This document shows, in pieces, positions 1,309 through 40,820 of a DNA stretch of 64,000 bases (its first letter is position 1; every line of letters begins with the position of its first letter). The position numbers were made by a program, and so were the translations under genes. The stretch is from positions 13,125,969 through 13,189,968 of the forward strand of contig NC_090288.1 of the NCBI RefSeq assembly GCF_037392515.1, in the 5' to 3' direction. The notes below the pieces were generated by a model. It was given only the letters and a program-made list of their open reading frames with translations. It ran no database searches and was not told where the DNA came from. The DNA is from Haliotis asinina. Taxonomy: Eukaryota; Mollusca; Gastropoda; Lepetellida; Haliotidae.

Positions 1309-4300
1309 AAACAGAAACTAACAAATCCAGATCCTGATGCCCTTGACCTTGAGCTGTTCGGACTTTGGCAGACGGAGATCTACATCCCTCCACCTGCTGT
1401 TGATGTAGGTTCTGAAATTATCACATCAAAATTATTATTATTATTATGCTCATTTTGTATGTTGAATCTAATGTGCATGTTTTTCTGGAGTATGCTCTGT
1501 TCTTGTAGGGCAAGATTCAGCGGAATGTATACGGGAATGTGGAGCTGTTTAAACCATGGATGTTGCCAGGGGGAACGGTGCACCTGCAAGGTAAATGTCT
1601 TCATCACTGATGTATTTCATGTTCAGTATGTAGGAAACATCTAGTCTCTGAAATAACGTAGAGAACAATATGGTTTAAGACTCTTCATTCAGAATCTATG
1701 GTAATAACCGTACATGGGGTATATTTGTTTGAGCATCTGTATGACTGTGTAGTCAGAGAATAACTTTTGAAGATGTGGGTTACAACTGGACTTAAGCATC
1801 ACATGCTTGTCCTAAGAGACAACTGATAGGCTCCAGTGTTCAGGTTCTCATGGTTGATGCCTTTCACCAATGACAACCTTGGCCTTAACCTGCCTCGCAC
1901 TGAATGAGTCAGTGATCTGATGTGACATATTTCATTTATAGCCATTGAGAGCTCCCTGGTTCATTTTACTTTTAGCATGGGGCAGGTTAAGGTTGTCACT
2001 GATGAACGGGCACAACACAACCCTGTTTGCAATGAAAAAATGCATGTATAATCTTTATGACAGTATGATGAACAAGTCTCTGAAAGAATCCCAGTTAGTG
2101 CGCTGACAGGTGCCATCAGTTCAGCATGTTTTGGTGTATACTGTGAACTAAACAACAAAATAGATCAGTTGCTGCTGCAAATTCTCAGCTGGGAATCGAG
2201 GTCACAATTTTTCAGAAGACCCCAGCTCCTAAAGTACTGCTTCCATTTTAGTGCTGTATGTCTCAATCTTTGTTGACAAATCTAGAGTCTCGAAATGTGT
2301 GCATACTTTGGATGGGATAGATCAGTGATCATTGTTGAATTTGCCCTTGGTGTGTTGACCTCGTCACATTCCTTTCCATTTATATGCTAAGACCCCGTTA
2401 ATGACGTTCCTTGATGGCAGTTTTTAGCGTTACAAGCCCCAGTGGACAAAGTTACATTTCAATACATGATGCAGTACATGTCTAATAACCTCAGCATGTC
2501 TGGATGCAGTTTCCATCACCAAAAAGAATAAATGGATGCCCACTGATTTATTTTTCAGGTGATCAGAGTTAGTTTTGTGTGATTTTTTATGTCATGGTAC
2601 AAAAAGAAAGACCTCGAAAACATTTTCACATGATCAAAGACATTGTCTGTATTGCTTTCTACGTTACGTGTACCAGTTGTCTTGTCTGGGACCAGCATAA
2701 GTTAAGAATAGTGTTGTCAGTTAACCAGAACACTGACCAGGATATTTGTTGTACAGGATTCCCAGGCCTGAACCGAGTCGCGAAGAAGCTGAACCTGGAC
2801 GTTGCACCGGCCATGGTGGGGTGGGACACTCACTGTGGCTTCTCTCACCCTCTGTGAGTTGATGGTAGAAGGAATAAGAACATCTTGTCATTGATCTGCT
2901 GTTGCTATCTGCATGAACGTTTACACCTGATTGTATTTTGCTGATGCAATATTGGTGTCAGTTGTTATTTTGGTGTCTGATGGATTAATGTTTGTTTGTG
3001 AAAGATGGACATCTAGTGATATTTCATAGGTGCAAGATTTTTATATGTTACTTTGGTGTGTGAATGAATTATGTCTGATGTTATTTTGTTCCTGCAAGAT
3101 TGATGTCTGATCCTATTTGATAGGTGCAAGAATGATAGCTAGTATTTGTTTTGTTAAAGCAGGATTGGTTATATGCAGGATAAACAGTTGGGTGTTTTAT
3201 TGTTGTTGTCTGGTGATATTAAGTCGTGCATAGGGTTGACATCAGGAAATGATATTGTTTGTTGTGTGCAGGATTGATGGCTGGAAATGTGTGAAGGGTT
3301 GACATGAGGAAGTAATATTGTTTGTTGTGTGCAGGATTGATGGCTGGAAATGTGTGAAGGGTTGACATGAGGAAGTAATATTGTTTGTTGTGTGCAGGAT
3401 TGATGGCTGGAAATGTGTGAAGGGTTGACATGAGGAAGTAATATTGTTTGTTGTGTGCAGGATTGATGGCTGGAAATGTGTGAAGGGTTGACATGAGAAA
3501 GTAATATTGTTTGTTGTGTGCAGGATTGATGGCTGGTAATGTGTGAAGGGTTGACATGAGGAAATGATAATGTTTGTTGTGTACAGGATTGATGGCTGGA
3601 TTGTGTGTGAGGAGCAGAAAGACATCCTGATCGCTGCATGGGACGAGGACCAAGAGATTCAAAAGCAGAGGGAGAGAGAGGTACGTGGCAATCAAATAGA
3701 GGCCAGGATTTGCTAAACCCTAACCCACTCACCAATACCCTGCTTTGTGCAAAACAAGGTGTTCCCGTCAGAAATCGGACAGTTGACCTACATACTTCAC
3801 CCTGCAGCTGCCGACAAGCGTTTTGTGTCCCAAAAGAATTAAATAGCTACCACTACCTCTTAAATCTGTGTAATGGAGAACGTAGGGTCTGGTAAATTTG
3901 CAATGCAGTTGTATTTGTCTCTCTTCACAGATTTTACATAGTGTTAAGTATTGATAAGTTCCCTTTTCCTTTGACAATTGCTTTCTGTTAATTTAAGCAT
4001 ATGAGTAAGTTTGGTTTTCCGCCTCTGTGAACAGTACTCCAGTACTAACTCACAGCTTCATGTTGGAGAAAATCGTGAAGTGATTCAGGTCTCAGATGTA
4101 AGATTTTTTTATGAAACTCACAAACATGAGTATGGTACAGAAACCAGGAAACATCATCAGCCAGCCTGGGATTTGAACCTGTGAGTAGGTGCCTGGCTTG
4201 CCCAAGGAATGAAACTATTCTAAATGAATTTCTTCATGTTGGGCAACTATTCGAAGCCAACTTCTGATTTTGGTCTTATTACCCATTGTTGTAGTTTAAA

Positions 4301-6427
4301 CACCGGTAAAGAATGGAAAAGAGGCATGTTTCATGTCGTCATCTTGGTGCATGGGTGGTCTTCATGTCTTGAGACACCGAAAGTGGCTGTGTACAGATGT
4401 ACACACCCTCTTGGATGTATGTGTGGTTGGAGTTTTATCGAAGCTTTTGACATCTTAAATCTGCATCAGTACAGACATCTCCACTACATCAAGCTGACAT
4501 GATGGGAGAAGTCACTAAACTCATGATTGGTTCCATACCCTAATCTTTGTTTATTGATACAATGATAATTCCTGTCGCTTGCACGGTTGGTTTAAAGGAA
4601 GGTGGCATAGCCCAGTAGTTGAAGTATTCACTTGTCATGCCAACAGTATGGGTTCAATTCCCCACTTGAGAACAATGTGTGAATCACATTGCTTGTACTA
4701 CTTTTGGATTATTTTACTCACTCCCTCTACGTAAAATGACCTGTGAAGGTCCCAGGGTAGAATAGGCCTTCAGCAACCCATGCTTGCCATAAGAGTCGAC
4801 TATGCATGTCGTAAGAGGTGACTAACGGGATCAGATGGTCAGGCTCGCTGACTTGGTTGACACATGTCATCGGTTCCCAATTGCGCAGATTGAAGCTCAT
4901 GTTGTTGATCACTAGATTTTCTGTTCCAGATTCACTCACTCACTCACTCACTCACTCACTCACTCACTCGAGGTCATAAGGTAGCTAAGTGGTAATCACA
5001 TGGAAGGCCTGAGTTCATTTCCCAACATGGGCACAAAGTGTTTGATTTATTGCTCAAAGTTCATCTTGCTAAACATTTCAGCTTCATGTGAATCAAATCT
5101 TTTCACAGTTTATGTACACAGATAGTTTGATCATTATATTTTCAAAAACTGCAAAAAAAACCTTCCAACCCAGCTTTAGATGAAAATCCTAGAATTCATA
5201 TTCTGTGGCTGTGCTAAGAGCATTGTACTGAAATATGTCCTGTACATCAACAGAAAAGGGAGAAGCGGGTGCTAGGCAACTGGAAGCTGTTGACACGATC
5301 CTTGCTCATTAGAGAGAGGCTGAAAAAGCGATTTGATCTGCAGGTGAGTTATCTATTTAAAACAGTTTGACGGCAGTATCCCAAATATGACATGGAATTG
5401 TGAAAAGTTCCTGACACACAGATTGCAGTTATGTCCCCAGCAGTGTTAGCTAAAGGGTACTAGGTATCTGGCTTGATATGTTGGTTGATAACATCTAAGC
5501 TGCAAGGATAAAATACAGCATGTTTGATTTAATCCTTTGTTTATTTTTGCTTCATGACTAGGGCTGCAATGATTCAGTTTGATTCATCAAAAATCGAATC
5601 TGGAACCTAGTTTTGATTTTCAATAACCATTGTCACTATTTCGATTAGATATTTGAATACCTATTTAAATTATTTCCACACAGCCAGAACGTAATTTTGA
5701 TTCCCAAAGCGTGCATTTATTAGCACTGGAATAAGGTGAGATTTGATTGGTTGATGCCAAGCTTATTATCCAATAAGAACTGTTGGTAGTAGACATCGCC
5801 AAGTTGATAATGTATTTCATGACGAAAAAAGACAACTCTGAGAGTTAAATGGAATCTCATGTTTTCACTTTTTTGAAGAATCACACTGAAAATAATCAAA
5901 TGACCTGCATCATGATATTTATGCAAGTGTCCCTTGATAAGTAGGTTATCTTTCTAGGAGCTAAAACACTTTGTACATCCAGTACAGAACTCCCAGTTGT
6001 GGTGTTCAGTTTTGTTCACAGGATAGAGCTAACTTGTGAAACAAAACTTGCAAGTCAAAACTTGCAAGTGATGCTGTGTTGAACTGTTATCACTCCAAAG
6101 TATATGAACACAGCATTCTTGGTATTTTCAGTTCAAAGACTGGGCTTCATGTATTAATGTTCTAGTATATTTTAGGCTAGAGTCCCATGCTTATATGACC
6201 TTTGTCATGTATATTTGATGATTTATCAATGTGTATTATGATGATGTTTGATGTATTATTTGTGGATGGTTTGTTGTCAGGATACAAACGCTGAGGAGGA
6301 GAAGGAGGATTGTGGGGCGGAGGTGGCAGGAAAGGGAGAGAAGGCTGTGGATGTTGTTCACTCGTGGCCGGCAAACAGGCAGAAGGGGAAGCACAAGAAG
6401 TTGTCAGGAAACACTGAGACTATGTGA
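1309..6427 (+). CDS. XPC: XPC DNA damage sensor, C-terminal six exons (5' part outside window)
   Basis: Exons 1309-1404, 1509-1590, 2757-2853, 3587-3680, 5254-5343 and 6281-6427 (TGA) join into one open frame of 201 residues with GT-AG introns. XPC/Rad4 binds helix-distorting lesions in the nucleus and starts global-genome nucleotide excision repair. Recognisable parts in order: the end of beta-hairpin domain 2 ([10 protein letters not shown]), beta-hairpin domain 3 ([37 protein letters not shown] block, [13 protein letters not shown]), then [18 protein letters not shown], which matches the centrin-2-binding helix of vertebrate XPC, with its Trp and Leu anchors kept. The last exon is a Lys/Glu-rich tail where human XPC contacts TFIIH. 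The tail (49 codons) is short compared with human as I recall it. The transglutaminase-like and BHD1 parts lie upstream of the window. Oddity: 63-bp repeats at the fourth exon's acceptor. The family call is secure; exact exon edges are read by eye. Confidence 0.95.
3241..3598 (+). repeat. 63-bp minisatellite containing XPC splice acceptor and exon edge
   Basis: Six copies at an exact 63-bp period. Each copy holds TTTGTTGTGTGCAG followed by GATTGATGGCTGG. The AG dinucleotides end at 3271, 3334, 3397, 3460, 3523 and 3586; only the last is the real acceptor of the exon starting at 3587. Weaker related fragments (TGCAAGATTGATGTCTGA near 3095-3115) lie upstream and may be older copies. Use of any decoy acceptor would meet an in-frame stop within about ten codons (TGG AAA TGT GTG AAG GGT TGA, or TGG TAA in the fifth). 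Because 63 is a multiple of 3, the - strand shows long but meaningless repeated frames. Confidence 0.95.
4598..4715 (+). repeat. SINE-like repeat, family B
   Basis: GGTGGCATAGCCCAGTAG (A-box-like) and GGGTTCAATTCCCC (B-box-like, close to GGTTCRANNCC). The 3' part is degenerate and runs into the next repeat. Confidence 0.65.
4742..4930 (+). repeat. SINE-like repeat, family A
   Basis: Blocks AATAGGCCTTCAGCAACCCA, GGTCAGGCTCGCTGACTTGG and ACACATGTCATCGGTTCCCA match the other family A copies. It runs into the (ACTC)n tract. Confidence 0.75.
4931..4970. repeat. (ACTC)n microsatellite
   Basis: Ten ACTC units directly after the family A copy; this simple repeat is the usual end of both SINE-like families here. 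Confidence 0.9.
4971..5042 (+). repeat. SINE-like repeat, family B, 5' fragment
   Basis: AAGGTAGCTAAGTGGTAA and GAGTTCATTTCCC resemble the A-box and B-box of family B. The fragment ends after GGGCACAAAGTG. Confidence 0.5.
5559..5900 (+). mobile_element. hAT-like MITE, truncated copy
   Basis: Begins TAGGGCTGCAATGATTCA and runs about 80% identical by eye to the complete element at 6760-7156. The far inverted repeat is missing. It lies in the last XPC intron. Confidence 0.6.
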
Positions 6428-10107: not shown

Positions 10108-10113
10108 TTTATT
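10108..10113 (-). promoter_or_regulatory. Candidate poly(A) signal of the UQCC5-UQCC6 transcript
   Basis: AATAAA on the - strand (TTTATT on +), the first one seen downstream of the UQCC6 stop at 11127. It gives a 3' UTR of about 1 kb. Inference. Confidence 0.4.
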
Positions 10114-11126: not shown

Positions 11127-12199
11127 TCAGCTCTTGGACCTTTCCAAAGCAATCTTTTTCCTTTCCTTTTCAATCAACTCGTCCATGTCCTGTAAATAAA
11201 CATACAATCAGAGAGTGCAGCTTAGGGCTGTCACAATTCACTCCTCTAACACTGTACAATCAGCAAGTCAAACAGTATGTATACCAACATCCAATGGCCA
11301 ATCAAAAATCATAATATTTCCGATGATCTATGGCCCTATAATTTTATTACCTCCCTCTACTTTCTTTTCATCCAATCAGGTGTCTACGCTGGGAATTTGA
11401 GCATACCAATCACATCTAACTTTCGCTTTTTAAATTATTTTTAACTGATTAAACTTGGGAACACAAATCATGCAGAGGAATTTTGAAAGGGGTAGAATGA
11501 GTTCTTGCATATAGTTCTCTAAAGTTTCGCACCTGACAATTTGTTTACATGATCTCACCCAAATCTGAGTTGCACTGCAAACAAACCTTCATAGCTGCGA
11601 CCACTATCTTTGTTGACACTGGCAAGCTACATTGTAACGGTGACTCAGCTGATTGGCTACTGTGAGAATGGGAGCCAGCAAAGGGAGCCTCAGATGCATC
11701 CAAGGTATAGTGGAGATTTATACGTATACCCTTGGGATATCGAGGATGATGTACCTACATCCAAACCACAATCAACAAATCTTACAAAATGTCTGCCAAC
11801 ATCCAAATGAGGAACATCAAGTCAAACATGTGTCCCTACATACAATAGCCAATCAGTAAGTCAAACATTATGTATACCCACATACAATAGCCAATCAGCA
11901 AGTCAAACATTATGTATACCTACATCCAATAGCCAATCAGCAAGTCATACATTATGTATACCCACATCCAATAGCCAATCAACAAGTCCAACATTATGTA
12001 TACCCACATCCAATGGTCAATCAACCTTTCAAACATTATGTATACCCACATCCAATAGCCAATCAACAAGTCAAACATTCTGTGTACCTACATCCAGCGG
12101 GCGATACATCATGTGTATTGTCTGTGACCCAGCAAACATGGACAACATAGCTGCTGCTGTGAAGCGCAGATATCGGCCCCAGGTCACACCAGCAGGCAT
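11127..12199 (-). CDS. UQCC6: UQCC6 (Brawnin/C12orf73), mitochondrial complex III assembly peptide, second cistron
   Basis: Two exons, 12199-12092 and 11189-11127 (TGA), joined across a 902-bp GT-AG intron in phase 0, encode 56 residues. The N-terminus MPAGVTWGRYL, the hydrophobic segment around residues 11-25, the following H..YRPLD and the Lys/Glu-rich helical tail match the Brawnin family (human MPAGV..YLK..., ...YYRPDLTIPE). The product is a small inner-membrane protein needed for complex III assembly. There is no separate promoter: the ATG lies 42 nt downstream of the UQCC5 stop codon inside the same exon, so it reads as the second cistron of one mRNA. The start context has A at -3 (ATCATGC). 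Oddity: the donor after residue 36 is part of a 42-bp tandem repeat that fills much of the intron. Length fits the family (about 60-70 residues). Confidence 0.92.
11806..12095. repeat. 42-bp minisatellite at the UQCC6 splice donor
   Basis: GCCAATCA-type anchors recur at 11848, 11890, 11932, 11974, 12016 and 12058, an exact 42-bp period. On the - strand the unit includes TTGGATGTGGGTATAC or TTGGATGTAGGTATAC, a copy of the real exon end and donor CTGGAT|GTAGGT at 12092/12091. A related fragment lies at 11255-11300. Confidence 0.9.
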
Positions 12200-12241
12200 G
12201 ATGAGATGTAAAGAAACCAGTATTCAAGTGATACAATCAAC
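12200..12241 (-). other. 42-nt intercistronic spacer between UQCC5 stop and UQCC6 start
   Basis: The spacer is pyrimidine-rich at its 3' half (GGTTTCTTTACATCTCATC before the ATG). It contains no ATG, no AG acceptor with an obvious tract, and no poly(A) signal. The two frames therefore appear to be read from one mRNA, by leaky scanning or reinitiation, rather than from separate transcripts. Confidence 0.8.
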
Positions 12242-14861
12242 CTAGGATGATGCTTCCTCAAGCTCTAGAGCTTTTCTGATGGCTTGCTTTCTCTTGTATA
12301 CAGAATCTGAAATGACCAGAAAACGGTTCAGATACTCTTGTGAATACCAAGATTATATACTTAGCCTGTGGTCTGTAGCTTGAGTAAATTCTTTGAGTGG
12401 CATGTTTAGAAGTTGGTGAATCAGGTAAGGACAAACTTTATGGATGAGCAACTTCTTTAATCGGGTGAAGCGACGTTTTGATACAGCTTCTTGTATCGTC
12501 AAGCGAGTATGAGCATACAGCTTCGTGTATCGTTGTCAGGCAAGTATGAGCATACAGCCTCGTGTATCGTTGTCAAGCAAGTATGAGCATACAGCCTCGT
12601 GTATCGTTGTCAAGCAAGTATGAGCATACAGCTTCTTGTATCGTCAAGCAAGTATGAGCATACAGCTTCATGTATCATTGTCAAACAAGTATGAGCATAC
12701 AGCCTCGTGTATCATTGTCAAGCAAGTATGAGCATACAGCTTCGTGTATCGTTGTCAAGCAAGTATGAGCATACAGCTTCGTGTATCGTTGTCAAGCAAG
12801 TAAGAGCAAGTTGATACAAGAAGCTGTATCGAAATGTTGCTTCACCTGATTAAAGAAGTTGCTCATCCATAAAGTTTGTCCTTATCTGTAGCTTGAGCAA
12901 CCAATAATACAAGAAGACAAAGTCATCAGTATCCCCCACAATGGTAAAATAATCTTCATGAAAATGTCAAGGTGATTTAACTATGGATCCATGTTGTCCC
13001 AGTGGTTGATGAATGATGGCATGATAAATATGTCTTCTTCCCATTGATCTAATGGAAATATACATATGTAAACTATCTATACACTAGCATGCTTGTATCA
13101 ACAACCGTCTGCCTGAGTTCTTCCACAGTCTGATGCACCCCAGTAATGCTGATACAGAAACAGAGTGGCACTGTTGATTTATGTCATTAGGTTCTTGAAT
13201 ACCCAGAAGGTAGATACAGGGTATTGAAAGGTTTTAAAGACCTGCTCCTGAAAGGTGCACTACCACCAATTTCAAAGTAGAACTTGTTGCCATCCTCAAT
13301 GCCAAAACAATTTATTCAGAAATCCATAACTATCAAAAACAAACAGTTCACTACCAGACCTTTCTATGTGCCTAGTTTGGTGAAAAAACATCTAACAGTT
13401 TTTAAGTTCTCCACATGAAAAGTACCATCACCAGTTTCAGTTGAAATCAAACTTATTGTCATAGAAACACAAGTTTTGTTTTACTCATAAATCCAAAACT
13501 ATCAAAAGGCACCAGTTCACCACTAGAACTATCTATGTGCCAAGTTTGGTGAAGAAGTACATTGAACTGTTTTAAAGTTCTGCACCGGAAATGAGCACAA
13601 CCACCAGTTTCAGTTGAAGTCAAATTTTATTCAGAAATCCAAAACTGAGGAACAGCATCAGTTCTCCAAAAATAAATATTTATTGATTTTCATGATCTAC
13701 TAAGATGAATTTGCACAGATGGAAAGACAGTATCCAAAGTAATAGTAAAAGTTGTAGTCAAATGGGCAGAGACTAAAAGTCAAATTGAACAAAACCAAAA
13801 CTCAAAAAAGGCCAAGAAAAGGGCCAAAAATTTATTTTCATAAATTACATAATAAAATAGTGCTTCATTTGTTGACGATAAATGAAATTTGAACACCAAG
13901 GCAGACAAACTTGTCTCAGTCCAAGTAAGTCCTCAGGTAAGCAGTACATTGTACTTCCTATTAACTGATTCCTAATTAGTCGTTAATTGATCCATAACCG
14001 TTGAATGAACTTCCTTGTTAATTGGAGATGTTAACAATCAAAACCCTATTTGTGACTAGATTTATACATGTCAGCAACCAGTTATCCCCAACACCTGGCT
14101 GTAGAGCTTGAAAAGATAGCTTGACTTGTACTTAACCACAGTACTTCACACATAGACACATCACAAAAGCAATAGGCTACGAGAGTTCAACTCAAGCTGT
14201 CTGTTCAAGCGCAGCTGCTTGGTGTTGGCAATAACTGGTCGCTAGCCAGTAGAGTATCTGAGTGAGTTTAGTTTTTTGCCAAGCTCAGCAATATTCAAGC
14301 TACATGGAGGCGGTCTGCAAATAATCGAGACAATCCAGTGATCAACAGCATGAGCATTGATCTTAGCAATTGGGAACCGATGACATGTGAAGTCAGCGCT
14401 AGTCGCCTCTTACAACAAGCATACTCGCCTTTTATGGCAAGCATGGGTTGCTAAAGACCTGTTCTACCCCGGATCTTCACGGGTAAGTACTAAAGTAGGT
14501 GTATTCAAGGTATGTCACTGGCATTGTCAGTCACCTGTTCACTTGATACTCTGTAAGAGGGTTACTGCTGTATCAAATTTGTTTAATTGTATGTTATGTT
14601 GAAATGGAAGTGTTGTGTCCGATAAAGTACACAAATCACGGAGAGGTAAATTTGACCTTCAAAATCACTGTCATCATGTGATCGAAAATTGAACAAATTG
14701 TTCCACTTACAAAAGTTAACTTCTCCAACATGCCACTTGATCATTGAAAATTCAACAGTAGCTCCAAGAACAAAGAAGCAAGGAAGGAATCTGTAAATGC
14801 CAAAAGTTCGCTTTCCTGGCCATTTGTCTATAACAGATCGAATAAATTGATCGACTGACAT
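12242..14861 (-). CDS. UQCC5: UQCC5 (SMIM4), mitochondrial complex III assembly factor, first cistron
   Basis: Exon 14861-14711 (ATG at 14861-14859) and exon 12306-12242 (TAG) join in phase 1 across a 2404-bp intron and encode 71 residues. The core PGKRTFGIYRFLPCFFVLGA, the following TVEFSMIKWHVGEVNFY and the basic VYKRK tail align with human SMIM4 (PGKQRFGIYRFLPFFFVLGG..., VGQETFYDVYRRK). It is a single-pass inner-membrane protein, with the membrane segment about residues 22-38, that acts with UQCC6 in complex III assembly. The start is chosen by the family length (about 70) and A at -3. The next cistron starts 42 nt after the stop in the same exon, with no ATG in the spacer. Two short upstream ORFs precede the ATG. 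The promoter carries NRF1- and YY1-like sites, typical of nuclear genes for mitochondrial proteins. Confidence 0.93.
12422..12888. mobile_element. Fold-back element with about 75-bp inverted repeats and a tandem-repeat core
   Basis: Left arm GGTAAGGACAAACTTTATGG.. and right arm ..CCATAAAGTTTGTCCTTATC are near-perfect inverted copies that extend through GATACAGCTTCTTGTATC. Between them are about nine copies of a 35-40 bp unit with AGTATGAGCATACAGC and TTCGTGTATCGTTGTCAAGC. No transposase frame. It lies in the UQCC5 intron. Confidence 0.75.
12889..14249. other. Rest of UQCC5 intron
   Basis: No exon seen. At about 13240-13665 there are 2.5 diverged tandem copies of a roughly 185-bp unit (CCACCAGTTTCAGTTGAA..TCTATGTGCCAAGTTTGGTG..). 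The remainder is AT-rich. Confidence 0.55.
14250..14490 (-). repeat. SINE-like repeat, family A (inverted)
   Basis: GTGAGTTTAGTTTTTTGCCA, CAGCAATATTCAAGCTACAT, CAATTGGGAACCGATGACAT and GCAAGCATGGGTTGCTAAAG are the reverse complement of the family A blocks. Confidence 0.75.
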
Positions 14862-14905
14862 TATTACATTGTGTAAACAAGGAATTCGTGCATGGCTAAA
14901 TGGGC

Positions 14906-14916
14906 GCGGCCATTTT
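14906..14916 (-). promoter_or_regulatory. YY1-like site (AAAATGGCCGC)
   Basis: Fits the AANATGGCNGC motif that often sits just downstream of the start in promoters of mitochondrial genes. Its ATG also opens a five-codon upstream ORF ending TAG. Confidence 0.5.
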
Positions 14917-14924
14917 GTTCTTTA

Positions 14925-14936
14925 ACGCATGCGCAA
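14925..14936 (-). promoter_or_regulatory. NRF1-like binding site
   Basis: TTGCGCATGCGT on the - strand; the core GCGCATGCG matches the NRF-1 consensus YGCGCAYGCGCR apart from the ends. NRF-1 controls many nuclear genes of the respiratory chain. Confidence 0.6.
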
Positions 14937-17900
14937 TGGGAGTAATAGCGAATTGCTGCTTTATAAAACTATATTTGATTGGGTCCTTTGTAATCACTTT
15001 GGCCAATCAGTAGTAGTTTGTTAATCGGGCCACTGTTCGAAACAAAGCCAACATGGAGTGAACTGGCGCTCGCTGAAGCTGGAAAAAAATCTCACTGAAG
15101 GTACATCTAGAGGCTCCCGCGGTAAATGCTATTGATCGTCGTTATCTTTAACGCTCTCTTTCCCCGTTGCTCCTTCCTTTCGGCCCAACATCAATGCGAT
15201 CGCAGAGTAGAGCTGCATGAAAATTACAGCAAATGTCATATCATCAAAACCTTTTCTTGTAGATCATCATCCGCTGACATTACATTATGGAAGGTTGTTA
15301 TTTCATGTTCGATTTTTTAAACATCAAAACTAGCTCTTCATATCAAACGGCAGTTTCCCATCAAGTTGTGACTACAGGGACTGGTTTTTGTATTGGGAAC
15401 CAAATTTGGATATTTCTTCGTGGTAAATTGGTTGCGTTGCCGATTTTGTCGACACGTTGTAGTGAAAACGTTTCTCCCAGATCTAGGTCTAATCACCCAG
15501 TCCAGTGCGACCATGTTAATTAGCATCTGCAGATGATATTTATACATGGAAAATGAGAGAAAATTCACATCGAAATCGTTATTGTTTGTGAACAATATTA
15601 CTTTGGACTAATTTTGGACCATTGTGGGCCAGGTGTAAACTGTCAGATCTAGAATATCAGAGACTGCCATTATTGTGTTTTTGATTTTACATGTCTCGTT
15701 CCATAGGATCACTTTCCTGTATGATTTGTAACCTAATTCCACTTCTAAGTACTTTCAAGCTTTGATGTCCCATATAATATTCTCATTAAAAGTAAAATAA
15801 TCACACTATTATTGCAATTTGTATATATAACTTCTTGAACAGAAAAAAGGCTTATTACTCATCTTTTTACCAAATCCCTGGAAGTTCACATTGTCTTGAC
15901 ACATCATCTCTTTGTTGTATTTGTTATGAAAATATTGCAGATCTTTAATGTTAGTAAGCATGAAAGGCAGTATCTGGTACTGGCATTTTGTGTCAGATGT
16001 CATGCATTCTGAGCTTACTCTTCTGGCAACCTCATAAAAATATCTTGTTCGTCTTTTGAACCCAAAAAATCATTTTCAATTTGCATTCACTATTAATAAA
16101 GTTAGTATGATGTTTACTGAAATTTTATGTTAGTGTAAAATATCTTTTCACATGTTTGACACAGGTTGAAATGTTATGATTTGGATATCGGTGTCACTAA
16201 TTTGAATAGTTACTTTAGAATTACAAGTATCTTATTATCGTAATTATGGCATACTTGTGATTGTGGATATCACTGAGGGTAATTAAAATAATTCAACATA
16301 AACATGGCATGTCATCACTGGTCATCATTAGCAGGTAATACAATGCACATCATCCTTGTGATAATGAGGGGTATGTGATGTAGTCAAATGGAGAAAGTGT
16401 TGGCTAATCAATCAAAAGAGAAGTGTTTGATTTCCCTCATGGATGCATTCTGTGAACTATGTGGTATACCCCTTGTGTGATGCATAGTTGTGACATGTGT
16501 CAAGAACTCTGTCACAAGTGTATAGAATGGATGCAGAAAATATACAGTATAGGGGTGTTTCCTGTTCTCACGGGTTTCCTATTCTCGCGGTAAACACATT
16601 TTCTGCCGAGGTCGATGATGCGTGATACTTAGCGGTTGTTTACATCATTGACCAGTAACTAGGAAGTGGCCCAAGTCTGTGAATTATCAAATATGTGCAG
16701 TGTAACAAATACTCGTGAGTTTAACCAACTTGGAAAAATCATAACTCCCCCACCCCACACCCCCCCACCCTTCCTGATAAGATTCCCCTTCCTTACACCT
16801 AATAACGTTACTTTGTTACTTTCTCGTTGTACCACGAGAATAGGAGAGTCTCGAAATGTCAGCAGCGTCTGGAAATGTCAGCAGCGGAGGACCATGTTTT
16901 CCTTCAAACTCAAGTGAGATAATACACTTGATGGATCAAGCAGGTGATAGATGCAGATGTTAGAGTGGAAATCTCTTCATTTAAAAACAAGCATACATAC
17001 GAAAAGAACTGTTTATATTATTTTTTAGCTGATATTTGTAAGTACAGCGAGAATAGGAGACGTCAGTATATACTGCGTTACGACAGATGCACATTATAAT
17101 TCACCTTGCCACATTCTTGACAAGAAGTAAAATTATAAACTTCCTGTAAATAAAGTTATTATTGCTCTTACCGATAAGAAAACTACATCCTTTCACTAAT
17201 TTTCTCTAAATATATATTTCCTGAAAGAACTTTAACGGTGGTTAAAGCAGTTTTGAATTCTACTGACAAGTTATTGTATGAGGACGCCGTCGGTTCCAAA
17301 TGCATTACCGTGATTCAAATACTCAATAACACCCGGAAATTGGCCAACACATGATGTTTATCTCCTAAATATAATCCTTTCAGAGCTGATTTAACTGAGG
17401 ATCCTTTTTGTGCCAGTAGTTGTTAAACATGCTAAATGTGACATGTGCTCCATTGGTGTGTGGGTGACCTAAGGAAAGATTATGAAAGCTTATTCTGGTC
17501 AAAACTGAAACTTTGCACAAACATGCAAAACTAGGTTTCATCTTGGGGGAGGGGACATTTGTTGAAAATATGAAAATGGACAGTGCATTAACTTGATTAT
17601 TATTGACATTACATTTGTTATAATGATCATGAATATGAAACTTGGGCTCAGTATTACTCGTTGCACAGAGCAGTGGACTAGCAGCTAGTCTCTGAAATGG
17701 ACATATTTTACTGAAAAAATGTTCATAGTGAAAAAACATAATATAATGAAATGGAGCCATGAGTTTTTCTTCATTTTCAGAGACTAAACAAATCTGTAGA
17801 GCGATAATTTCTTGGAATTTCTCAACACATGCAAAGATTCTTATCACCCATTACTGACACGCCACTGAAGGTGTATGTGACAGGACTTTTTATTGCCCCC

Positions 17901-24230: not shown

Positions 24231-27200
24231 ACTCCCAGCGGGGTTCCAGCAACTCCCTGACTCCATGCCTATCAAACAGGAGCCTCAGGAGCCTCATCCG
24301 TCTCAGCCTGCCCCAGGCAGTCAGCCCCCAACCAAGTCCAAGGCCAAGAAGAAGAAGGTTAAGAAGGAACCACAAGACAAGTGAGAGAATTGGATAACAA
24401 TATATCATGGCATATCAGTGTATGAAACTCCTTCAAAACACAGGAAGCCCATAGTGCTTATAACTACAAAATGTTGCCGGCCCTGTTGACATGTAACCAG
24501 CCCCATATTAAATATAGCGAATTGAGATATGGCGTTAACAGAAAGTAATCAATGAATTACTTGTAGTGAGGTAAACTTAAACATATGCCAAAGCACATTT
24601 AATAAACCTTGACTTGGTGGTCACCGTTGATTCATTCAGTGTCACTGCCATCAGAAAAGAACATTATTCATTGGTTGAAAGCATTCTTGAGACCAGTCAG
24701 TACTAGACAGTTAGTGCTAAGTAAATGAGAAGGTTAATCTGTGGAAGTTACAGTTTTATTGATCATGAACTATGCAGACATCATTGAGTTACCACAGTTG
24801 AAAATTATTTTCGAAACATATCCCATAGTCATTGACATGGTCGAATATATACCCTTGGAAAATGTATTGGCGCACAGGGCCAACTATGAAATATAGTTGT
24901 ACGCCCGCCATGTAACTAGCAAGCAGTAGGCCGCCAGGCAGACACTATTTCGTTCACTGGACAGATCTCTACAAGGAATAGTTAACAGGCAGTTTGCTCC
25001 AAAACTCTCCATTTGAAATGTGAGCGACAGGCCAACTTCTTGCTTTTGGTCTGGTTCAGTGTGCACTACCAACACGTAAAACGGAACCAATTCACGCTTT
25101 GATATGTTACAAATTCATTATGAAATGCTCATTTACAGCAAAATAGTTATAAAACTGACATATTTTTCACTTGTTGTTAGTTTACAGCATTATCATTCCT
25201 TCAATGTCTAAGTTCAATATGCACTGACATGATGGGTGATAATGAGCAAAACATCGTGGAAAATCGGCTTGTCATTTCCTGTTTACAAAACTAACAGGGT
25301 CAGTGCTGAGATTGAAATTTAGTATGAATATATTGTTTATATGATGACAAATTGGTAAGTTAGCAAGCACCAACATGCATGGGATTGCAATCACCAATCA
25401 AATGAAACATCCACATGAATTGTTCAAGTGGAATCTTCCCCATGATTTATCAATGTCTCCGAGAGAGGTAGTGAAATTACATCATATTTGCTTGCTCACA
25501 CACTCATTCCCTCTCTCTGAAATGACTCTGTAGGGCACAGGTCGAGGAGGGAGAGGATGGGAAGGCCCCGAAGAAGAAGTTAAAGCAAGAGAAGATTACG
25601 GAGCATCTCACAGTGAAGAAGAAACGTGACCGCTTCAATGGCATGCCTGAAGAAGAGGTGGTTCTGAGACTGTTGCCAGATCATTTGGTGGAAAATCTGG
25701 ACATTGTGATTGTAAGTGAAGCACACTGAGAACAAGCTATTAAACATTCAATATTCCAAGTTTATCAGGGTCCTTGAACTTTCATGATATAGTGTTTGAT
25801 TTGAGACCCACTAACTTTACCATCTTAGGCCACTTTGTTTAGATTTCTATATAAATTCTCGATTTATGATGAAAGATTGATCAAGGCATCTCAACTTCAA
25901 TTTGTTGATCAGGATTTACCTGATACTGACAGACATGTTTCTATGGAAACTACTTAAAAGTTCTGTGTCATTTTACTCAGATTTGTGCTAATTTGTTTTG
26001 TTATCTTGGCATCACATGCACTATGTATGAATAATTACATATCTTTTAAACTGTCACCCAAGTATTGAGACAAATAGCCATTTAGTTTAAGTAAATTAAA
26101 CCAGTATAAGCAGTATTACGAGTGATACTGAACCTAACTTTACTGAAGCTGATTGCCATTGAAACTACTTTTAGTGGCAGATTTCATTCCTACAGACATT
26201 GTTGGATCAATCAGCATTTCCATTTTGAGTTGAACTGATTTGAAACTTACAATAAACATGTTAGTTATACCACCTTTATGATATTAATCCGTGTTAGAAT
26301 ATGTTGTCTGTAAAACTGGGCTCAAGATGATTTTTCAACATCAGGACTACATACTTTCATTTTTTCAATTTAGTTTTACGAGAAAAACTTAAGAGAACAT
26401 TTAGACTACTCAGTCACATTTTATGGAGTGTGATATTAGTTATAGTTCATTCATTATTCATATGATTCCCCAAACACAAGGGAAACCTCAATGTGTAGCT
26501 ATATCATAAATTCGACTTTGGGACAGTGCTTGAAATCAGATACAACTACGTCTATAAGTGATTATAAGACCATGGACCATTGTTTCAGTGCGTATCTGGT
26601 ACGTTTTCTAAAATATTTCCTACAATAATTTGGTGCATTTTTGTTAGGTTAACCGAACATATGACAATACAGCCCATATCTGGAGCCTTGTGTAGTACAT
26701 GCATTTCATAAGAGGCTTTGGGTGATCAGGCTCTATAACTTAGCTTCAAGATGTCGTTGCATCGATGTAGGTTGAGCAATGCTCATGTTTTTGATTATTT
26801 GATGCTGCCATACAGCTTGAATACTGCTGAGTGAAACAGTAAACAATAATCAAACCAAATGGTATTAGCTATACATAATAATCACTACATTCCTCTGTCC
26901 AGGTTGGAATCAATCCAGGACTGTTTGCTGCCTACGTTGGACACCATTATGCTGGGCCGGGAAACCATTTCTGTAAGTGCACCGAAACTCAAAATAATCC
27001 ATCAGCTTGGTAGCATGTGAGTTTAGATTTATGCCGCTTTTAGCAACATCACGGCATTGTATTCCGGAAATTGGCTTCACACAAGTGGAGAATGTCGATG
27101 TGGAGAATCGAACACAAGTCTTTGGTATGATGAACGAATGCTTTAACTGCTGGGCTACCCCATGGCCCCTCCATCTACTTAGTGCAATGACATAATGTAC

Positions 27201-30200
27201 ATTCTGCTCTCTTTTCAAAAAGAAATTTAAAAAAAATAAGCAATAAAAGATTGAAGGTAACAAGTCCAGAATCTTTTTACACAAGATCCGATATTTTACC
27301 AATTTTAGAATCAGTCAGTGTAAATATAACAAATATAATTATGCCGATGGAAAAGAAATTAGTCACAGGATAGTTTAGAAGAATGCCCACACAATATTTT
27401 TCTCCATGCATATATCTCTAACAAATTTAGATCACATAGTGACACGTAACTTTACCCTCTTCTTCCAGGGAAATGTCTGTACCTGTCAGGTCTGATCCCA
27501 GAACCCATGAATGCTTACCAGGATCATGAACTTCCCAACTTCGGCATTGGCTTCACAAATATTTGTGCTAGAACAACAAGAGGAAGTGCAGATCTGAAGA
27601 GGTAAGGGACATAACTCTCACTCACTTCCTGAAGTGGCCTTTAGAAGCAGGTATGATAAAGAGGAACACTAGCAAATACATGTTGTCTCTCCATAAAAAC
27701 TGTTTCTCTTCTATCTTGCTCTATAATAAACAGTTTTAAGACAAGTTGGGTACAGATTGTGGAGGTCATACAAGTCAGTTATGGTCTGAACCTTATACAT
27801 GTACACTGAAGGAAAACAGTAATGTGAAAATACTAGATTTGCAGTAAGCATTGTTTATTACTATCATGACAATATGACCAGCTTCAGTTTGTGCAACCCT
27901 GCATAGTTCTTCCCACATTAAAATTTCCAGTCACAGAACTGACATGCCGTTTTTATTGCAGGAATGAAATCAAGGAGGGAGCCAGTATACTGAGGGAGAA
28001 ACTACAGAAATACAAACCAAAGATTGCGGCATTTAATGGAAAAGGTAACTCATTCTTATAGAAAATGGCTGTTACTTTTTGAGCGATCAGTTCAGTTATC
28101 CCCTGCCACAAGGTGAGATGTATTTATCATACTACATTACTCGCCTGTATAGTGTGTGTAAAGCAAAATCAAGTACAGTTGTGCCCCGTTTATCCAAACA
28201 CTTGTGTTTTTATTGAAATAGTCTGGATAAGCGAATTTTCGCATACTGTAAACTGTCTTATTTCCACGCCTTTAAATTTTTGCGAGTGATGGTCACTAAA
28301 CCTTTTCATGCCTTCTTATTTTCGCGAGGTGATCTTGTTACAGGAGCGTTTCTAAATGTTTTTACATGACACGTAGGTGCGTGACCACTGAGCTGTTATA
28401 AAATAAACGATTTGCAAAGTGATTTAACAACAAATTGATGTAATTGATTTCAGAATTAATTCTTTTTAATTAGGTGTTAGAGCAATGAAAATAGACTGTG
28501 ACTGAGCAGTGTTAATCCAGATTAGCCCAGCGGTGACACGTGATTGAGCAATGACACCTGTATTGTTTTTGTGTTGTTCACTTACCTGAATAGAGTGTAT
28601 GATACATCTATATTATCGCATGTTTTTATTCTCGCGTCATGAAGTGTGATGCGAAGTTCGCGAAAATTAAACGGTCGCGAAAATTTGGCTGTTTACAGTA
28701 TCTGAACCACAGTCCGTATGTACAAAGAAACGTACAAAGAAATGAACATAGTAGGCATCAGGCATAATCTTTATTTATTACATATAAACAAATATCAGTG
28801 CATACATAAAATGTCTCATGCCTGTTCATGCAGTTTTGCTCGCTTGAAGAAATCAGTCATAGCTTTTTGCACTGGCTGTGTAGAAAAGCGAGAGGACTTT
28901 CACTGGTCAGTTCGTCACTGTCGACATTCACAAGATCATTGGCAGTAACAGTCACAGTTGCAACTTGTAGGATCATAGTGCATCAACAAGGCCATGTACT
29001 CTTGTGGGTCCTCATTAGATTGGATAATATCCACATGACGAAAGCAGTTAGCAATTGTCTTTTCGCTCACATCTGTTGAGACTTTGCTTGATCATCCGGA
29101 TTAATTAATTATAGTAACAAATTGACACATCTCAAAATTAACTCAGTGTCACCATGCTACTCAGAAGTAGTTAATCTTCTCACGCTTCAAAGACTGCCGA
29201 CTTGTTTCATGTTATGGCACACAAGGCCCTCAGTAATTGCGTGTGTAAACATGCAGGTGCTCAGCCATCCAGATATACGAGACAAAAAACGGCACATAAT
29301 TTAGTGTTTTGTAAGTGAAAATGACAGTACGGTTGTGGAAACCGGATTTACTGATAGGTGAGTAATTTTACAACGTTGTGAATTCGTTTTAATGAATTTT
29401 TGTTTGGAAGGTGAGTTTTCCGGATATCTGAGGTTCGGATAAAGGGGGCACGACTGTACCTAAAGTGAGTCCCTGAAAGCCAGGGGAAATTTAAGTTAAA
29501 TTCTGGACATAATGAGATTAATAATGGCATGAAACACAGAAAGAAGCCATTCAAAATTCCCCACTAGACCACAGGATAAGTGAGTGAACAATATTTAGTG
29601 GTCCAGTCTGAACTTCACTGGTCCAAAATAACATTCACAGATTTACTTAAATATCAATTGAAATTTCATTGGCCACAAAGCACTGAGGTGATCATAAGTC
29701 ACTAAGGTAACCTAAGTGTAATGTTAACTTTTTAAAGACTGCCTCATGAAAAAATGAGCACTACAAACTTATCATTCAGTGGTCCTGATGAATTTTTACG
29801 AGCCGGGGACTGCTGGAGCAGCTTAAATTTTTAACACTGATGAAAGGTGATCAGGGTGACTAGTATGGTTTTGCGTTTCTTTTAGCAATATTTCAGCTTT
29901 ATCACAGCAAGGACACCACAACTGTGCTCCTCACATTACACCCACATGGGGAATGGAACCCGGGCCTTCAGTATGGCAAGCAAATGCTTGAACTACTTGG
30001 CTACCACAGGTACTCATTGTCATGTTTATCAAATACTTGTGTCACTTCCAGATGTTTGGTGTTTTTGCAGGTATATATGAGGTGTACTGTGGCCACAAGA
30101 ACTTCATTCTGGGTAAACAACCTGAGCCAGTGGAAGGAACAAATACAGTAAGTGAAGACAGGACAGCTGTACAAGAATTCAGACTGTTTAGCCAGTGTAT

Positions 30201-31443
30201 TACGTAAGGTCCATCTGACCACCTGAACTAGCCAGCCAGATGGCCTGGTGCAAATTTTAGATGTTTCAAAAACTTTCATACATCTGAGTGAATTCTTGGT
30301 GTCTGGTCTGGTTAAATCCATTTTGGGCTGGAAACAGTTTGAAGTTACCAGCCCTGGTATCTGGCTGGGGTTTCAGCTTATTTCATACAGTGGCTATTGC
30401 ACACAGCTACTTGAAGCTTCAGTAATTCTCTCATCCCAGTAGCAGACTTACCATTATGAAATTGTTAAACAGATGGTTGTTGTTCTGTTCATATATATCA
30501 GTTAACATATTGAACTGAACCATTTTCCAAACAATATGCTATTTTTATAAATAAAACATAATGCTGTGTTCATTGTTGTCAGATGGTATATGTGATGCCG
30601 TCGTCCAGTGCTCGATGTGCTCAGCTTCCAAGAGCTGTTGACAAAGTCCCTTTCTACTTGGCCTTGAAGAAGCTGCGGGACCACTTGCGAGGAGACCAAC
30701 CAATCCTTGATGACTCTGAAGTCTGTTTTCCGAACCTGGAACTCAAGATCAAAACTGAGCCCAAAGTTGAACTTGATGCTGATGGCCAACCTATCAAAAC
30801 TGAGCCAAAACCAAAAGCTGAAGCAAAACCCAAATCCAAAGGCAAGAAAAGTAAAGCCCAAAGTCAGTCCCAAACTAGTCAGCCCCAGAACATTCCAGTA
30901 CCAACTAGTCCTGGTCAGACGGCCAATGAGATGTGGTCTGCAGTGAAGCAAGAGAAGCCATATGACCCAAGTGAGTATGGCGGACAGCCTTATGGCACTC
31001 CGATATCTGCTGCTTGTGCTGTTCCCCTGTCCACTCAAATGATGCCAGTGTATCAAAACACTCACATATACTCCCAGCCAAATGGACAGAGTAGCACACA
31101 GAGTCAAATAGCCATCCACAATGGCACAAAGTCCACAACTCAAGATGATATGGGAAGGACTGTACCAAGCACAACAGCAGTTTTCTACCCAGCTTCAGCA
31201 CAGCCGATGTACCAAGGGCAGATGTACTCCCAGGGGTCTTTCTTACAACAGTTACAGGAACCGAACCTGACCAATGACACAAACTCACAGACCTGGCAGT
31301 ATCCCTCCTTCTCAGCCAACCAAATCCTGGATGACAGCTCAGCCAATAAGACAACAGAAGGCAATGATTCATCTGAAGTTGTCCAGATCAAAACAGAACC
31401 TGAGGATTATGGCTATACTGAGATTCCTTTCAACAGCATGTAG
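24145..31443 (+). CDS. TDG: TDG, G/T mismatch thymine DNA glycosylase
   Basis: Exons 24081-24380, 25534-25711, 26903-26972, 27469-27601, 27962-28044, 30071-30147 and 30583-31443 (TAG) join in one frame with GT-AG introns. If translation starts at the in-frame ATG at 24145, the protein has 545 residues; any coding upstream exon is not found. TDG removes T or U from G mispairs, and 5-formyl/5-carboxylcytosine, in the nucleus. Visible features: a basic Lys-rich N-terminus; the [19 protein letters not shown] block; [22 protein letters not shown] with catalytic-site Asn142 (human Asn140); GIGFTN; FNGKGIYEV; and [10 protein letters not shown] with the insertion-loop Arg270 (human Arg275). VKQE at 380-383 corresponds to the human SUMO site. 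The C-terminal exon is longer than in human and rich in Gln/Ser/Pro. Oddities: seven psi-K-x-E motifs and a duplicated first acceptor. It shares a promoter with UQCC5-UQCC6. Confidence 0.95.
26690..26860 (+). repeat. Degenerate SINE-like repeat, family A
   Basis: GTAGTACATGCATTTCATAA, GGGTGATCAGGCTC, CAATGCTCATGTTT and CTTGAATACTGCTGAGTG keep the order of family A blocks. In a TDG intron. Confidence 0.5.
27010..27178 (-). repeat. SINE-like repeat, family B (inverted)
   Basis: GCCGCTTTTAGCAACATCAC, GAGAATCGAACACAAG (inverted B-box) and TTAACTGCTGGGCTACCCC (inverted A-box). In a TDG intron. Confidence 0.75.
28246..28698. mobile_element. MITE nested in the pogo-like element
   Basis: CTGTAAAC..GTTTACAG ends flanked by TA on both sides. 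The inner TIR continues as TTATTTCCACG / CGCGAAAATTTGG, with many TTTTCGCG words. No coding frame. Confidence 0.65.
28815..29070 (-). pseudogene. pogo/Tigger-like transposase C-terminal remnant
   Basis: On the - strand from 29070 the reading [15 protein letters not shown] matches the C-terminal motif of pogo-family DDE transposases (T..NCFR..G). After about 50 codons it is stopped; a frame change continues as [18 protein letters not shown] before another stop. The catalytic domain is missing, so the element is non-autonomous. Confidence 0.6.
29865..30010 (-). repeat. SINE-like repeat, family B (inverted)
   Basis: TTTTAGCAATATTTCAGCTT, GGGGAATGGAACCCGGG and TTGAACTACTTGGCTACCAC (inverted A-box). 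It lies 60 bp upstream of a TDG acceptor. Confidence 0.7.
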
Positions 31444-39386: not shown

Positions 39387-40820
39387 CTAGGAGTACATGT
39401 TTGGCATGTTATTTCCCCACAGAGTGGCCGGGTCGTTGAAGAACTTCAGGAAGTCGACTGCTGCGGGATGTCCCTTATATGGTGTGTAGGGATGACCGCA
39501 CTTCCGGTCACCATTACACCTGTTAACCCACGTAGATAAGTACGCAATGCCAAGAGCTGTCTTACTCTCCTTCATGGGTTTGAGGACTAGGTCCATCCAT
39601 AAATTGGGATGGGTATCTACATTGGGCTTGTTAGATCCGAACTCAGTCACAGCCGCTATCTTATTCCTTCTCTGGGCTACATCGACAATGGTCTCGATTT
39701 TAGCGATAAGATCTGTGGGATTTCTTGAAGACGACCCGCTGTAGTAGTAGTCGAGACCGATTACGTCGACATAGTCGTCACCAGGGTAGGTGAGCATATA
39801 TTCATGGTTATCTATCGCCGCCCCGGGACTGTACGCGTAGAGGACGTTGTGGACGTGTTTGACGTCACGGAGGTAGCGGACAAGGAACTGCCAGAGTTGC
39901 TTGTACTCGTCCGGGGTGTTTTGGGCTGCATTTCCCATCCCCCAGAAAAACCATCTACCATTCATCTCGTGGTAAGGACGGAATATTATTGGGATAAGCT
40001 TACCCTGGGGATCTTTAAACTTAAGCGCCCATTCTGCGATTTTGTCCAGATTCTCTGTCAAGTTAGCGTTATTCGGGCCACCAGGGAGTAGTTTTTGGAT
40101 GGTGTGAGCCACGTCCCCGTGGTCGTCCTTAATGTAGAAGCTCCCTCCCGTTACTGGGTTGCTATGGTGCCATGAAAAGGTAATAACTTCCCCTCGAGAA
40201 TAGGCTTTGTGGGCAAGATACGTCACGGTGTCAAGATAAGACGGTATTAGATCCCGGAGATCCATACCCATGATGCCCGGATGCTGGTTCGTGACTGAGC
40301 AGACGTCACAAAGTTCATCGTTATCCTTATTGTGTGCCTGTTGGCTCTAGTGAATACAAAACGAAAATATATATATATACGAAATGGAAAAGAAAGTCAT
40401 TTCGATAAAAAGGTAGTTCACGCATTAGCATCTAATTCTCAAATCATCTTCGTAAATACGGATGACAGTTTTAACGTAAATTCTGGAACTGTTGAAAATT
40501 TAACCCTTTCCTCGTCATTCGCGTCTCTCCGTCAGCAATCGGAATGACAAGGACGATAATGAAAGTCGCCAACTCACAGTGAAGACCCATCCTTTGGTAT
40601 TTCCATTCTCGTAAACGTGGTACGGAGAGTGACCGCCATATTCACCCCACTGTGTCGATCCCTGCATCCCAAATACGAACCTGGTGCCGTCACGTGACAG
40701 CTTCAATAGATTGCTGTACAAATTTTTCGTCTCCAAGGTTGCCTGTTGATCGATCGGAAGACCATAGCAGGCATATTTGATCGCAACCAACAGAAGCAAT
40801 CTCTTCAACACAGGCACCAT
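39387..40820 (-). CDS. Secreted GH26 beta-mannanase-type glycoside hydrolase
   Basis: Exon 40820-40578 and exon 40337-39387 (TAG) join in phase 0 across a 240-bp GT-AG intron; 397 residues. Residues 1-20 are a clear signal peptide (MVPVLKRLLLLVAIKYACYG). The rest is one GH26 (beta/alpha)8 domain: GMQGSTQWGEYGG, SVTNQHPGIMGMDL, FSWHHSNPVTGGSFY (around 137), IIFRPYHEMNGRWFFWG with acid/base Glu205, YPGDDYVDVIGLDYYY, and VTEFG with nucleophile Glu313. The pattern is closest to endo-1,4-beta-mannanases (EC 3.2.1.78); related GH26 activities (1,3-xylanase, lichenase) cannot be excluded. An algal-food digestive role is inferred from the secretion signal and organism guess. GH26 is mainly bacterial and is patchy in animals, so an old transfer is possible, but the intron and flanking mollusc repeats show it is resident nuclear DNA. 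Its 5' end is about 0.4 kb from the tandem array. Confidence 0.93.

Follow-up and report, generated by a model that had tools for sequence, protein, structure and literature searches.

Does a mollusc make UQCC5 and UQCC6, two small proteins assigned to complex III assembly in fly and human, from one messenger RNA? The question is raised by a 64-kb stretch of the Haliotis asinina genome (the window; C9:13125969-13189968, C9 being the 66.3-Mb contig NC_090288.1), in which both reading frames lie on the minus strand, with UQCC5 upstream, and meet inside one exon. Judged from its sequence, the locus is very probably a bicistronic gene, present in one copy, that belongs to the sloth1/sloth2 (UQCC5/UQCC6) type, in which one message would serve both proteins. 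Positions without a prefix are those of the window.

The first coding exon of UQCC5 (14861-14711) carries codons 1-50 and the first base of codon 51, and ends at the donor TTT/GTAAGT. Intron 1 (12307-14710; GT-AG, 2.4 kb) interrupts the UQCC5 frame and leads through the acceptor TTTCAG/AT into the shared exon 2 (12306-12092). This exon holds the UQCC5 C-terminus with its stop codon (12306-12242), an intercistronic spacer of 42 nucleotides (nt; 12241-12200) and UQCC6 codons 1-36 (12199-12092). Reading of the minus strand and splicing by script placed the UQCC5 stop TAG at 12244-12242 and the UQCC6 ATG at 12199, with 12092 as the final exon base before the donor GAT/GTAGGT. Intron 2 (11190-12091; GT-AG, phase 0) interrupts UQCC6, and the second UQCC6 coding exon (11127-11189, encoding DMDELIEKERKKIALERSKS and the stop) begins after the acceptor TTTACAG/GA at 11189 and ends with the stop codon at 11127. 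The spliced frames encode 71 amino acids (aa) for UQCC5 and 56 aa for UQCC6. They are in register (42 = 3 × 14) and are parted by the TAG and by an in-frame TGA in the spacer, which forms a second stop. An earlier note on this DNA had described an exon with the UQCC5 end, TAG, a 42-nt ATG-free spacer and the UQCC6 ATG followed by 36 codons, and every coordinate of it was reproduced by splicing. The spacer contains no ATG and no AG. Among overlapping stretches of the minus strand in the first 41 kb of the window, 39% of those of 42 nt and 10% of those of 107 nt also lack ATG, so an ATG-free spacer is ordinary and was dropped as evidence; 9% of the 42-nt stretches lack AG.

Both introns contain repeats. 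A 42-bp tandem array (11838-12096) opens intron 2, and its unit repeats the UQCC6 splice donor (GGAT/GTRGGTAYAC); six of the nine GATGTRGGT motifs in the window fall in this array, namely the true donor and five decoys, and use of a later donor would bring a stop within a few codons. Intron 1 contains an element resembling a miniature inverted-repeat transposable element (12426-12884), with 72-bp terminal inverted repeats (94% alike; 12426-12497 and 12813-12884) around a 37-bp tandem array.

The identity of both proteins was evaluated by Pfam searches, with a cut-off of 27 bits for both families. UQCC5 matches PF15114 (UPF0640) at 108.7 bits over residues 5-63, and UQCC6 matches PF14990 (DUF4516) at 68.4 bits over residues 1-45. 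The five UQCC5 homologs include 'sloth 1' of Rhynchophorus, and the 13 UQCC6 homologs include insect 'protein brawnin' and 'ubiquinol-cytochrome-c reductase complex assembly factor 6'; because of these named members, PF15114 is equated with SMIM4/UQCC5 and PF14990 with C12orf73/UQCC6. Two matches to curated families, 42 nt apart within one exon, are not a chance occurrence. In the homolog alignments both splice junctions sit within conserved protein sequence: four of the five UQCC5 homologs run on across the junction as VNFY, while one (P0005) departs after VNF, and the UQCC6 junction lies just ahead of D37, a residue common to at least 90% of 14 aligned sequences. The two families gave no alignment with each other in hhalign (6 UQCC5 and 14 UQCC6 sequences, both shallow alignments; probability 0.03 of 100), a result that lends no support to the proposal in Bosch 2022 that sloth1 and sloth2 are paralogs. 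No convincing relative of either protein was found in the PDB, where the five chains listed, from synthetic or alphaREP proteins and from spectrin, had a best E of 0.0014 and were judged to be chance matches. Scans of viral contigs with the UQCC5 and UQCC6 alignments gave 77 and 40 pattern-matching stretches and no relative, and a scan of prokaryotic genome contigs with the UQCC6 alignment gave 216 such stretches and no relative.

The whole genome (1,143,192,487 bases, 159 contigs) was searched for further copies. All three matches fall at this locus: exon 1 of UQCC5 and both exons of UQCC6. No separate one-cistron copy of either gene was detected by this exon-wise search, which uses a loose first pass that a diverged copy could escape. 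A search with the UQCC5 protein found no retro-copy of the spliced message in the genome; such a copy would have shown co-transcription directly.

The closest described counterpart is the fly sloth1-sloth2 gene (CG32736/CG42308), compared here from excerpts of Bosch 2022 (PMC9681215). These excerpts report a demonstrated co-transcript, in agreement with the earlier note's statement that the Drosophila pair comes from one bicistronic mRNA, and they report a 'similar bicistronic gene architecture' in a choanoflagellate, a sea squirt and lamprey. The fly and Haliotis loci share both families, the UQCC5-first order, the strand and the candidate single message. They differ in the spacer, which is 5 nt with shifted frames in the fly and 42 nt with frames in register in Haliotis. 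For the choanoflagellate, sea squirt and lamprey, the comparison with Haliotis covers the architecture reported in the excerpts. The Haliotis locus is thus a further member of a published bicistronic kind, and the idea is not new. Molluscs are unmentioned in the main text of PMC9681215, and the wider literature was not searched by name for mollusc UQCC5/UQCC6; the excerpts of PMC13303939 and PMC7066179 contain nothing further on bicistrony.

One bicistronic mRNA, the simplest reading of the Haliotis locus, agrees with the identities of the two genes, with their shared exon and with their single location. Because the last coding segment of UQCC5 and the first of UQCC6 lie in the same exon, a complete UQCC5 message would carry the UQCC6 start unless polyadenylation falls within UQCC6 or intron 2; and since the spacer has no AG, it offers no acceptor for a UQCC6-only exon. 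A candidate promoter lies upstream of UQCC5. It contains the palindrome GCGCATGCG (14926-14934, minus strand), which resembles a core motif that we take to be that of NRF1 and is the sole match in the window, against an expectation of 0.03 and a match in 3 of 100 shuffled sequences. It also contains two CCAATCA boxes in opposite orientation (14976-15009; reverse at 14976, forward at 15003), of 25 such boxes in the whole window. The observed/expected ratio of CpG (CpG o/e) is about 1.1 upstream of UQCC5 compared with 0.57 window-wide, and 0.23-0.45 around the spacer (300-bp stretches starting at 12001-12201). Downstream of UQCC6, an AATAAA at 10108-10113 on the minus strand is a candidate poly(A) signal by consensus match only. 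A promoter near 14.9-15.0 kb would give one primary transcript, and removal of the two introns would leave a mature message of UQCC5 (71 codons), 42 nt and UQCC6 (56 codons).

How two frames on such a message might be translated was considered from their start contexts. In both the UQCC5 start (aataATGt) and the UQCC6 start (catcATGc), position -3 is A and position +4 is not G. Leaky scanning was proposed for the fly, where the excerpts of PMC9681215 give a weak context for sloth1 (ACAC-ATG) and a strong one for sloth2 (CAAA-ATG), in contrast to AATA-ATG and CATC-ATG in Haliotis, both with A at -3. Three ATGs lie inside UQCC5, at +38, +117 (in frame) and +130; the frames that they open close 148, 42 and 65 nt short of the UQCC6 start codon, and none overlaps it. 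Three short upstream open reading frames (ORFs) of 5, 9 and 1 codons (14864-14913, minus strand) all close before the UQCC5 ATG, the latter two 2 nt ahead of it, and the 5-codon ORF, with A at -3 and G at +4, has the strongest context. These ORFs would be in the message only if transcription begins upstream of them, just above -52, and transcription starts further up would bring in ORFs of 2 and 15 codons. As a weakly held view, the upstream ORFs, together with a UQCC5 frame that is short, leave room for both leaky scanning and re-initiation to operate at UQCC6. UQCC5 would be made by first initiation, and UQCC6 by ribosomes that skip the UQCC5 start or start again after UQCC5. A role in complex III assembly is transferred by analogy from work on fly and human, so that the two small membrane proteins may then act jointly at an early, cytochrome b, step of this assembly. 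Excerpts of PMC9681215 and PMC12455275 place the proteins in early complex III assembly, in human within a complex containing C16ORF91.

Several observations weigh against a single message translated in this manner. When the 300-bp stretches of the window are ranked by CpG richness, the candidate promoter is outside the top 15, and in intron 1 the tandem repeat has a CpG o/e as high as 0.9. The minus strand of intron 1 has four AATAAA (13836, 13684, 13631 and 13316) and two ATTAAA (14587 and 12461), and intron 2 has one AATAAA (11348), so the five intronic AATAAA could give rise to messages that are truncated or carry UQCC5 only; polyadenylation within intron 2 would leave UQCC5 whole. The earlier note's claim that no poly(A) signal separates UQCC5 from UQCC6 holds for the spacer, but such signals do occur in the introns. 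Its claim that no promoter lies between them was addressed indirectly, through CpG content and motifs. The weak-then-strong order of starts seen in the fly is absent, and the three ATGs between the two starts show no clear depletion: a stretch of 255 nt contains 6.0 on average, and three or fewer occur in 17% of such stretches.

One alternative is a pair of overlapping transcription units, in which a separate promoter within intron 1 or exon 2 would drive UQCC6, the two genes would be no more than neighbours, and each working message would be read for one protein. Intron 1, at 2.4 kb, contains repeats that could harbour such a promoter, and the CpG o/e of 0.9 falls in its tandem array. However, with the shared exon and an AG-free spacer, UQCC5 messages would still take in the UQCC6 start barring intronic polyadenylation; CpG o/e is low at the spacer, and the NRF1-like site occurs upstream of UQCC5 only. 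We therefore regard separate promoters as unlikely.

The spacer also bears on two other arrangements. An operon resolved into two messages by spliced-leader trans-splicing has precedent, as excerpted sources describe such systems in some animal groups, but an acceptor AG would be needed upstream of the UQCC6 ATG; the spacer has none, the nearest being in the UQCC5 stop TAG itself, and this arrangement is highly improbable. A UQCC5-UQCC6 fusion protein made by stop-codon read-through would be compatible with a spacer length divisible by 3; however, translation would have to pass two in-frame stops (TAG and TGA), and the homologs are separate proteins of 51-82 aa in a search that admits only lengths near that of the query. 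Read-through is the least credible explanation, with next to no weight in our assessment. A single bicistronic message is the explanation with which we proceed.

If the pair was once one gene, how did jawed vertebrates come to have two? As the earlier note had stated, human UQCC5 and UQCC6 are on different chromosomes: SMIM4 (UQCC5) on Chr 3 and C12orf73/BRAWNIN (UQCC6) on Chr 12, at 12q23.3, belong to the same families as the Haliotis proteins but are two unlinked genes in the excerpts of PMC9681215. According to the same excerpts, both ORFs trace to one duplicated ancestor and 'became unlinked' in jawed vertebrates, with no mechanism given there. The note's idea of an ancient pair, kept in a mollusc and later split by vertebrates, agrees with Bosch 2022, where it had already been published; the split itself belongs to jawed vertebrates, because lamprey keeps the linked form.

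A neighbouring gene of the Haliotis locus suggests a more specific history. Six exons of TDG (thymine DNA glycosylase) were matched on the plus strand at 25571-25717, 26903-26980, 27471-27602, 27957-28046, 30070-30150 and 30583-31443 by tblastn with mollusc TDGs and by a PDB TDG match; their edges are approximate, and the first exon was not located by the tblastn search. Between the UQCC5 start and the first matched TDG exon lie 10.7 kb, and no further gene was recognised at 15-24 kb, where all four stop-to-stop ORFs of at least 90 aa are under the Pfam cut-off. The first ten named TDG relatives include Liolophura, Octopus, Sinanodonta, Elysia, Batillaria and Lymnaea, with Macrostomum scoring best; we take the ten to be six molluscs, two annelids, one tick and one flatworm (Macrostomum). 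The human TDG/C12orf73 pair is presumably arranged head to head. TDG adjoins UQCC6 in human ('Neighboring TDG and C12orf73' at 12q23.3; PMC11714271) and the undivided UQCC5-UQCC6 gene in Haliotis. The cattle order, in excerpts, is STAB2, NT5DC3, HSP90B1, C5H12orf73, TDG, GLT8D2 (PMC10818672 Table 5; the same run in PMC8888742). Human SMIM4 lies at chr3:52.54-52.90 Mb with STAB1, NT5DC2, PBRM1, GNL3 and GLT8D1 in excerpts of PMC5545733 (also PMC6906185 and PMC9734053). As TDG is beside UQCC6 in human and cattle and beside the undivided gene here, UQCC6 appears to have kept its ancestral neighbour. By name and general knowledge, we assume that STAB1/STAB2, NT5DC2/NT5DC3 and GLT8D1/GLT8D2 are paralogs that pair the two blocks. 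Because both cistrons of one ancestral gene lie in paired blocks, we consider it reasonably likely that an early vertebrate genome duplication copied a block with the bicistronic gene and that the copies lost opposite cistrons, neither cistron having moved away. The STAB1-NT5DC2-GLT8D1 block would have retained UQCC5 (SMIM4), and UQCC6 (C12orf73) would have stayed in the STAB2-NT5DC3-TDG-GLT8D2 block, with its ancestral neighbour TDG still next to it. A stray move would rarely land in the paired block: by our estimate a block covers roughly 0.4 Mb of 3,100 Mb.

Some observations count against this duplication history or lend it no support. HSP90B1, TDG, PBRM1 and GNL3 are unpaired between the blocks as listed in the excerpts. 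PF01501 (GT8), used for GLT8D, gave three genome matches, all on contig C16 and none on C9. One of these (L025) has a 278-aa frame, which by its motif we take to resemble xyloside xylosyltransferase, and in another (L026) no 200-aa frame is present. The GT8 search probably missed GLT8D itself and gives no support for ancestral linkage. A search of 264 kb with a fragment of human HSP90B1 gave no convincing match (one row, E 7.4), and the linked form in lamprey bears on the timing of the split relative to each duplication. A history of duplication and opposite loss for UQCC5/UQCC6 was not found in the literature searched, which misses most subscription papers, and this is no proof of novelty. 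The comparison suggests that what is new here is TDG as neighbour of the undivided gene, together with the paired vertebrate blocks.

On the other side of UQCC5-UQCC6, exons of an XPC-like (Rad4 family) gene lie on the plus strand at 2687-5349. They were matched via P0055 (Pfam PF03835 and PF10405), with BHD_3 at 24.1 bits, under the cut-off of 27, and the name XPC is our assumption. The pair is thus flanked by two DNA-repair genes, XPC-like and TDG. P0055 is a Batillaria gene model that fuses XPC-like and TDG-like sequence in one protein; the fusion is probably an annotation error that reveals adjacency, and it suggests that the two genes are close together in Batillaria too. An ORF at L004:2949-4130, without a Pfam match, is presumably the XPC start. 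About 25 kb before it, a 406-aa ORF with a QRICH1/DUF3504 domain (L007:6621-7838, plus strand) is possibly derived from a mobile element.

The remaining features are an exon of the glycosyl hydrolase family 26 (mannanase-like; 39390-40346, minus strand; 159.4 bits in Pfam), an ORF at C9:13044364-13044930 (minus strand, among the long ORFs listed) whose motif we take to be reverse-transcriptase-like, and a macrosatellite. The macrosatellite consists of 3.3-kb units head to tail, runs from 41225 to 64000 and on to at least C9:13289968, and is gapless over at least 122 kb. Among the matches listed, its full units are 97-99% like the first, and the partial unit at the left edge is 94% like it. An inverted relative, 87-93% alike, lies on the opposite side of the gene (C9:13101407-13104120). 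An Rfam search of the window gave no match, and the two macrosatellite ORFs tested had no Pfam match.

Few animal messages are bicistronic. With a mollusc case, Lophotrochozoa would join the fly, the sea squirt, the lamprey and the choanoflagellate, and an origin of the arrangement before animals would gain support. The natural differences in spacer and start contexts provide material for asking how a balance is reached between two proteins that belong to one complex. It is the history of the split that deserves pursuit. The TDG neighbour and the paired blocks turn the general statement that vertebrates split the gene into a specific and checkable history. If true, it would be a case of complementary degeneration acting on cistrons instead of enhancers, in which an operon-like gene was divided by complementary loss.

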